A program made the translations under genes and the position numbers. The notes under the pieces were generated by a model. The model saw nothing but the letters and a program-made list of their open reading frames with translations, searched no databases and was not told the DNA's origin. Shown here in pieces: positions 9,356-10,132 of a DNA stretch of 41,715 nt (position 1 is the first letter of the stretch; the number at the start of each line of letters is the position of its first letter). The stretch lies in contig JADHUY010000003.1 of NCBI GenBank assembly GCA_016784305.1, positions 1 to 41,715 of the forward strand, written 5' to 3'. This DNA comes from Parcubacteria group bacterium (lineage in GTDB: Bacteria; Patescibacteriota; Minisyncoccia; Phycocordibacterales; JABMNX01).

Positions 9356-9399
9356 TGTAAATCAGCCTCGCACCATACGTGGTGCGAGGCTGATTTACA
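9356..9399. terminator. Long perfect inverted repeat between nrdJ and rnpB
   Basis: TGTAAATCAGCCTCGCACC atacgt GGTGCGAGGCTGATTTACA. Confidence 0.75.
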
Positions 9400-9490
9400 T
9401 TTAAGTATTTTATGGTATATTGCCTTTAGTGCTTCATCGGGTAGCTACTCTTTGCATTCATTTGCAAAGGGAGGAAAGTCCGGACACTTC

Positions 9491-9626
9491 CCGCACACCC
9501 ACTTTGGCATTGTGTTTTTGTTGCAAGATATTATACGGGCAGGAAAAGTCCAGTTATATAGAAAGTTAAATCTTTTGCGCAGGAATTAAGAAAACACGAT
9601 GCAACGATGCCAAAGTGGGTGTGCGG
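9491..9626 (+). mobile_element. 136-bp inverted-repeat-ended insertion in rnpB, copy 1
   Basis: CCGCACACCCACTTTGGCAT ... ATGCCAAAGTGGGTGTGCGG; identical to 9791-9926. Confidence 0.85.
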
Positions 9627-9790
9627 GAGCAGGGTAGCGGGTAACGCCCGTCTGTAGCAATACACGAGGTGCGAGCAGAGACGATTGTTCCCGAAAGGGT
9701 ATGATTGCCCAAGCGATATTGTTTTGGGTAAGCTCTATGGAAACATAGAGAGTGAAACGGCTAAATCCTTACCTAAGTGCAAAGTCGAGT

Positions 9791-9926
9791 CCGCACACCC
9801 ACTTTGGCATTGTGTTTTTGTTGCAAGATATTATACGGGCAGGAAAAGTCCAGTTATATAGAAAGTTAAATCTTTTGCGCAGGAATTAAGAAAACACGAT
9901 GCAACGATGCCAAAGTGGGTGTGCGG
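9791..9926 (+). mobile_element. 136-bp inverted-repeat-ended insertion in rnpB, copy 2
   Basis: Identical to 9491-9626; flanking bases differ on both sides. Confidence 0.85.
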
Positions 9927-10040
9927 AAGTGCCGCTAGAGGTAGCTGGCAACAGCTATCCCAGATAAATGGCTATCGCTTTAGACTTTTAAAGTCTTTGG
10001 TACAGAATCCGGCTTATAGATGGAGTGCTAAAGGAAATGA

Positions 10041-10067
10041 AAAAGACCTGTGAAAGCAGGTTTTTTT
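10041..10067 (+). terminator. Intrinsic terminator of rnpB
   Basis: ACCTG tgaaag CAGGT followed by a run of T. Confidence 0.75.
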
Positions 10068-10132
10068 CATTTTGTACCTAATTGCATGGCTGATATAATA
10101 GTAGCAATTATTATATAAACTTAATTTCACTC

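Follow-up and report, generated by a model that had tools for sequence, protein, structure and literature searches.

Palindromic mobile elements of an order of Paceibacteria occupy two loops of an RNase P RNA gene

Results

An RNase P RNA gene carrying two identical inserts

The stretch of DNA analysed here (the window) comprises 41,715 nucleotides of contig JADHUY010000003.1 (assembly GCA_016784305.1) and belongs to the genome of an uncultured Patescibacteria bacterium (G000; 563 kb in 34 contigs, 92% complete). It encodes a class A bacterial RNase P RNA (rnpB), which cmscan matched to the full Rfam model RF00010 (model positions 1-367) at 9429-10032 with 86.7 bits (E = 8.6e-27); like many of its relatives, the gene thus scores under the gathering threshold, which is 100. 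The gene contains two copies of an element bounded by terminal inverted repeats (TIRs), and both copies were scored with R1, a covariance model that we built from 13 members of the element family described below. The features of the locus are as follows:

9394-9421, plus strand: possible rnpB promoter, TTTACA-16-TATATT, by consensus match only
9429-10032, plus strand: rnpB, 604 nt including the two elements and 332 nt once they are removed
9491-9626, plus strand: 136-bp element copy 1 (122.3 bits with R1), located in J5/7, the hairpin loop that follows the 5' strand of P5
9491-9510, plus strand: 5' TIR of copy 1, CCGCACACCCACTTTGGCAT
9607-9626, plus strand: 3' TIR of copy 1, ATGCCAAAGTGGGTGTGCGG
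9627-9790, plus strand: P RNA core between the elements, consisting of the P7-P14 region followed by the P5 3' and P15 5' strands (alignment with the sister rnpB and with Rfam)
9791-9926, plus strand: 136-bp element copy 2 (122.3 bits with R1), located in the hairpin loop at P15-P17
9791-9810, plus strand: 5' TIR of copy 2
9907-9926, plus strand: 3' TIR of copy 2
10035-10072, plus strand: candidate rnpB terminator hairpin, inverted repeat AAATGAAAAAGACCTG/CAGGTTTTTTTCATTT

A first-pass annotation made from the letters alone had described two copies that are identical over 136 bp, lie 300 bp apart, end in perfect 20-bp TIRs and are flanked by unlike bases, all of which we reconfirmed. We counted four occurrences of the TIR 20-mer in the window and none in 100 shuffles even with three mismatches allowed, which excludes chance as its source. 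The same annotation took the remaining ~332 nt to be a P RNA of ordinary size, and this class A core can indeed be aligned throughout with the rnpB genes of its genus and family. Both inserts lie inside rnpB, where they replace or extend two variable hairpin loops and leave the conserved core uncut. Since this is the single rnpB found by a genome search in the 92%-complete assembly and rnpA is also present, the interrupted gene is presumably the functional rnpB of G000. The interval between rnpB and a ribonucleotide-reductase-like gene additionally holds a perfect 20+20 bp palindrome (9356-9399; TGTAAATCAGCCTCGCACCA, tacg, complement), which resembles a terminator on the minus strand by pattern only.

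The inserts lie in peripheral loops of the P RNA

Comparison with the Rfam alignment and with relatives places insert 1 directly after the 5' strand of P5 (CACTT), in J5/7 (the P6/P5.1 region), where the sister species G001 has a small hairpin, CTAATTTTAATTAG. Insert 2 takes the P15-P17 position, at which relatives have a short hairpin (CCCAATTTTAAATTGGG in G001). Both loops are peripheral and of variable length among relatives; in the alignment, the rnpB genes of G001-G005 are element-free at both of them and show short, unrelated hairpins at site 1. That the inserts are not ordinary helices of the relatives is thereby borne out, the sister species having short hairpins of unrelated sequence at both sites.

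In P RNA of the E. coli type, helix P6 joins these two regions, and in the B. subtilis type the comparable loops L5.1 and L15.1 are in contact. Because the two copies are identical, their arms are able to pair crosswise, and the predicted energies of this arrangement and of two separate hairpins are equal (-234.6 vs -234.9 kcal/mol). The hairpin of the insert itself is predicted to be very stable (z = -6.9). Immediately downstream of copy 2, the L15 region (9927-9940) reads GGAAGUGCC, where rnpB of relatives has GGGAGUGCC-like sequences. The GGU motif, which binds the tRNA CCA in P RNA of the E. coli type, seems from these sequences to be absent from the P RNA of this group.

The inserts belong to a dispersed family

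The 136-bp inserts are members of a dispersed family that is not confined to rnpB. R1 found matches in 48 of the 297 genomes of the order, representing 36 of its 165 genera, whereas a sample of 380 genomes from the phylum yielded just two weak matches outside the order. These two look-alikes (L193 in G330:C18 and L194 in G536:C32) measure 140-144 nt, resemble the family in their ends and could be either distant members or products of convergence. Length is narrowly distributed among the 79 distinct members (125-139 nt, mean 133, SD 2.7), and in most members the TIRs pair at 17-20 of 20 positions, the window copies being perfect over 20 bp. Exact matches to the TIR were found in records named Kaiserbacteria, Nomurabacteria, Taylorbacteria, Campbellbacteria and the like. 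Beyond rnpB, G000 carries copies in its 16S rRNA gene (G000:C17) and beside a tRNA gene (G000:C7). At one locus of another genome (L200, G051:C14 10505-10804), copies are arranged in tandem or nested, with repeated internal hairpins.

The family moves as DNA

In 24 of the 62 copies outside RNA genes, the two flanks match at five or six of six bases, while 2000 trials with shuffled flank pairings gave 4.3 such copies on average and never more than 12. Flank identity peaked at register 6 (0.63), with values of 0.10-0.38 at all other registers from 2 to 11, and the duplicated target is palindromic, mostly GYWWRC. The copy at G000:C7:1176-1308 has GCAAGC on either flank, and the corresponding site in the sister species (G001:C16) is empty, with GCAAGA present once and the same spacing to either side. 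Together, the 6-bp target duplications and the exact empty site firmly establish the family as mobile DNA. A miniature element had been one of the options raised in the first-pass annotation, and it is this option that the dispersed family, the target duplications and the empty site support well. For a further copy (G208:C4), the flanks match those of its genus, the junction of the empty site being too poorly resolved to read. We conclude that these palindromic elements form a mobile family that belongs to one order of Paceibacteria (Parcubacteria) and is not described in the sources searched.

The two rnpB copies in the window lack a target duplication, their flanks matching at one and two of six bases, which counts against the reading as mobile DNA. 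Duplications are weak in RNA genes generally: 4 of 18 copies match at five of six bases and none perfectly. Their absence at rnpB is most simply explained by erosion under selection to re-pair the flanks, and another route of entry could also account for it. An inversion between the two copies was considered and rejected, as the flanks do not fit.

Structural RNA genes are filled repeatedly and mostly in sense orientation

Members of the family lie in four loops of rnpB in four genomes (G000, G095, G208 and G269). G000 has two and G095 carries members at the P3 and P19 loops; the site of insert 1 also holds a member in G208 and that of insert 2 one in G269, so that both window sites are filled independently in other families. 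The rnpB of G208 combines a 135-nt member at site 1 with an element encoding a GIY-YIG nuclease at site 2; its P19 carries a 68-nt hairpin that has the ends of this GIY-YIG element. Among rRNA genes, members occur in 16S (at one site in G000, G001 and G174, and also in G053) and in 23S (G024, G180, G198 and G259). The earlier comparison of the layout with rRNA intervening sequences has thus gained substance, in that the same family occupies both rRNA genes. One 23S region (L055 3344-5558, G024) contains five members, with a group I intron match further along the locus.

Where R1 discriminates the strands by at least 5 bits, 15 of the 16 members in RNA genes are in the sense of the host RNA, a count in which the events are partly dependent (the window pair; the 16S copies of G000 and G001) and for which R1 was partly trained on such copies. 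We treat this bias as real though unexplained; co-orientation with replication or a need for one strand at the RNA level are possible causes. Four members in rRNA-operon spacers (L094, L110, L111 and L098:4576-4710) are likewise all in sense orientation.

Pairing is conserved inside the element

Between the TIRs, the alignment of 13 members revealed covariation in two helices that cross each other, located in copy 1 as follows (copy 2 at +300):

9512-9518, plus strand: helix a, 5' strand GTGTTTT, pairing with 9591-9597
9520-9524, plus strand: helix b, 5' strand GTTGC, pairing with 9601-9605 and crossing helix a
9591-9597, plus strand: helix a, 3' strand AAAACAC
9601-9605, plus strand: helix b, 3' strand GCAAC, adjoining the 3' TIR

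The inner positions of the TIRs vary between copies, even within one genome (G269), yet are complementary within each copy. Counting TIRs and inner helices together, 17 pairs show double-sided changes in the 13 members, compared to 9.1 in shuffles. The crossing order a-b...a'-b' with a combined score of at least 10 is present in 76% of the 79 members, a score reached by 9% of controls with 3' halves swapped between members and by 1% of shuffles. Conserved pairing of this kind in the absence of conserved sequence points to a folded single strand, either RNA or DNA. A neutral source of the complementarity of the TIRs could lie in template-switch correction of palindromes, which would not by itself give rise to the crossing helices. 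As the order a-b-a'-b' is symmetric under reverse complementation, the crossing helices carry no information on the strand.

Elements encoding GIY-YIG nucleases share the same ends

The inserts in the window are without a GIY-YIG reading frame. In G279, two elements of ~300 bp with the same ends (CCGCACACTAACT...) encode a GIY-YIG protein of 88-99 amino acids, and reading frames of the ~300-bp elements match PF01541 above the cut-off. Ends of the CCSCACAC type border GIY-YIG elements in G279, in G051 (target duplication GTTGAC), in the sister G001 and in G037, G198 and G180, while a second class of ends, CCC(C)GTAGTAGA, is common to miniature copies in G080 and a GIY-YIG element in G016. Among ~65 small GIY-YIG reading frames in 22 genomes, about 30 have TIRs on both sides that score at least 11, compared to 5% of random positions, with a spacing of the TIRs that is typically 270-320 bp. 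Most of the TIR-flanked proteins retain the residues of the catalytic motif in an alignment, and a few are truncated or contain stop codons. GIY-YIG elements also occur at the site of rnpB insert 2 (G208, G128 and G261) and in a 16S loop (G198). The insertions of the family are dispersed and have in common a short palindromic target only, not a long conserved homing site. Other TIR-flanked GIY-YIG elements, with ends CCCGTTAGAGA, form a separate family (L218, L237, L254, L256 and L252) that occurs in several taxonomic families of the order; L252 has the ends CCCGTTGTAAGA and an exact 6-bp duplication, ATACAT.

Sequence comparison thus makes a GIY-YIG nuclease the likely mobiliser of the family. 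Target duplications of GIY-YIG elements are clear in only a few cases (L209 and L252; five of six bases in L233 and L237), and a search for a TIR-flanked GIY-YIG gene in G000 found none. Both observations count against the best explanation given below, and because of them we infer the role of mobiliser rather than observe it. The GIY-YIG element of the sister G001 was examined for a clean empty site in G000, the flanks being too diverged to provide one.

Discussion

A proposed mobile-element explanation for the rnpB inserts and its alternatives

We consider it probable that the inserts in rnpB are miniature, non-autonomous mobile DNA elements of ~133 bp that are tolerated in loops of the P RNA, with ends that are probably recognised by a GIY-YIG nuclease. 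The best reading of the data is that they are non-autonomous derivatives of TIR-flanked GIY-YIG elements, kept because they add hairpins to a P RNA that still works. The element moves as DNA and leaves a duplicated 6-bp target (GYWWRC or ATNNAT), while the small single-domain nuclease of the ~300-bp elements with the same terminal repeats would probably recognise its ends. Most likely, this nuclease would act in trans and cut the short palindromic target with a stagger of 6 nt, whereupon the element would be copied or moved to the cut by some joining step. To judge from the locations of the copies, insertions at coding positions and in RNA cores would be lost and those in peripheral loops would survive and accumulate, because there the TIR hairpin merely prolongs a stem of the host RNA and leaves the catalytic core intact. 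In the window, one copy would have entered one P RNA loop, and that in the other loop would be a recent duplicate or the product of gene conversion. The P RNA would then work as an expanded molecule of ~604 nt or, if RNase III clips the stems, as base-paired fragments. The orientation of the RNA-gene copies counts against this explanation, as simple insertion of a near-palindrome as DNA would not predict a sense bias.

That bias is one of the attractions of a reading at the RNA level, in which the inserts are sense-strand intervening sequences that RNase III cleaves in the TIR stem, P RNA and rRNA functioning as non-ligated fragments. Excision would here be what makes the insert tolerable, a proposal that concerns the fate of the RNA and is compatible with an origin as mobile DNA. 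The very stable hairpin and the members in 16S and 23S loops also speak for it, and in a survey of rRNA in the candidate phyla radiation (CPR), two 23S sites have short insertions that are classed as RNase III-type (PMC11270868). Against this stands that a symmetrical TIR stem would be cleavable in either orientation, leaving the bias unexplained by RNase III alone, and that the majority of copies are intergenic; we regard this reading as a serious contender about which we are nevertheless rather doubtful. An ordinary transposase of the DDE insertion sequence or RAYT type, with the GIY-YIG elements as co-passengers on the same ends, would account for the classical signature of TIRs and a fixed 6-bp target duplication. 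Yet no autonomous insertion sequence of 1-3 kb with these ends was present in the seven copy-carrying genomes searched, and two distinct classes of ends are each shared with GIY-YIG elements, which renders this alternative unlikely.

The remaining candidates fare worse. A very small intron, self-splicing or protein-assisted, with a crossing-helix core and a ligated P RNA as its product would suit the compensatory changes in the crossing helices, the near-constant length, the sense bias, the placement in essential RNAs and the GIY-YIG reading frames at neighbouring sites, which recall homing introns. We consider it improbable, given that intergenic copies with target duplications are frequent, that no conserved catalytic motif was seen between the helices and that known introns and small ribozymes could be rejected, the Rfam matches of the insert being chance microRNA-type hairpins only. 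Models of group I and group II introns gave no match at the inserts, and the same library detects the group I intron in the 23S locus of G024. Very improbable, in turn, is an assembly artefact in which one real copy was duplicated or strain variants were merged: exact identity over 136 bp is hard for short reads and could be partly made by the consensus, but the flanks differ and suit an otherwise complete P RNA, and both sites are filled independently elsewhere, in G208 at once and with different sequences. The variable length of both loops among relatives might finally suggest ordinary helix expansions peculiar to this lineage, to which we assign next to no probability; ordinary P RNA helices are ruled out by the alignment with the sister rnpB and by the dispersed copies, which show the same sequence family in 16S and 23S genes as well as, with target duplications, between genes.

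Building on the preferred reading as mobile DNA, the TIR-flanked GIY-YIG elements (~300 bp, encoding a nuclease of ~90 amino acids) might represent a new autonomous class of transposable elements with a dimeric GIY-YIG transposase making 6-bp staggered cuts, of which the rnpB inserts would be satellites. Such satellites would lodge preferentially in structural RNA genes and be kept by the pairing of a single-stranded form with crossing helices. We put this proposal forward tentatively, at slightly under an even chance.

Relation to known repeats and insertions

By description, the family resembles the Rickettsia palindromic elements, which are also palindromic, of ~100-150 bp and dispersed in a reduced genome, and which occur inside genes. 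It differs from them in its 6-bp target duplications, its crossing-helix core and the ends it shares with GIY-YIG elements, as well as in being mostly intergenic or located in loops of structural RNAs. The MITE-like bacterial repeats NEMIS, ERIC and RUP are short, non-autonomous and TIR-ended, with a target duplication and a stable RNA hairpin, and all of this holds for the present family; unlike in those repeats, the likely partner is the gene of a GIY-YIG nuclease and not a DDE transposase, and the inner pairing is conserved without conserved sequence. In REPIN/RAYT repeats, a target duplication is atypical. With rRNA intervening sequences of the RNase III type, the family has in common that stem-closed insertions occupy hairpin loops of rRNA, whereas here they form one recognisable mobile repeat family that is also found in rnpB and in intergenic DNA.

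Many short insertions in CPR rRNA are listed as uncharacterised in the survey, published in 2024, which classes some of them as RNase III-type intervening sequences. It finds every GIY-YIG reading frame within an insertion that is not an intron, at poorly conserved rRNA sites and, as its authors note, outside a homing context (PMC11270868). Inverted repeats, palindromes and RNase P are unmentioned in its main text, and the present data add TIRs, target duplications and a miniature form to the GIY-YIG insertions as described there. Searches for intervening sequences in rnpB, for Rickettsia palindromic elements together with rnpB, and for bacterial GIY-YIG genes with TIRs returned nothing matching in the literature covered, to which subscription journals largely did not belong.

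The sole rnpB found in a minimal bacterium can thus serve repeatedly as a landing site for mobile elements, with no visible loss to its core, and the inserts make the limits of tolerance of a universal ribozyme testable. Many short and GIY-YIG-bearing insertions in CPR rRNA genes have lacked an explanation, and the family offers one possible origin for them. If the link to GIY-YIG nucleases holds, it would represent a kind of transposition not ascribed to this nuclease fold in the bacterial literature searched, and the TIR-flanked GIY-YIG elements, if they are indeed autonomous, would perhaps be the smallest autonomous transposable elements known.
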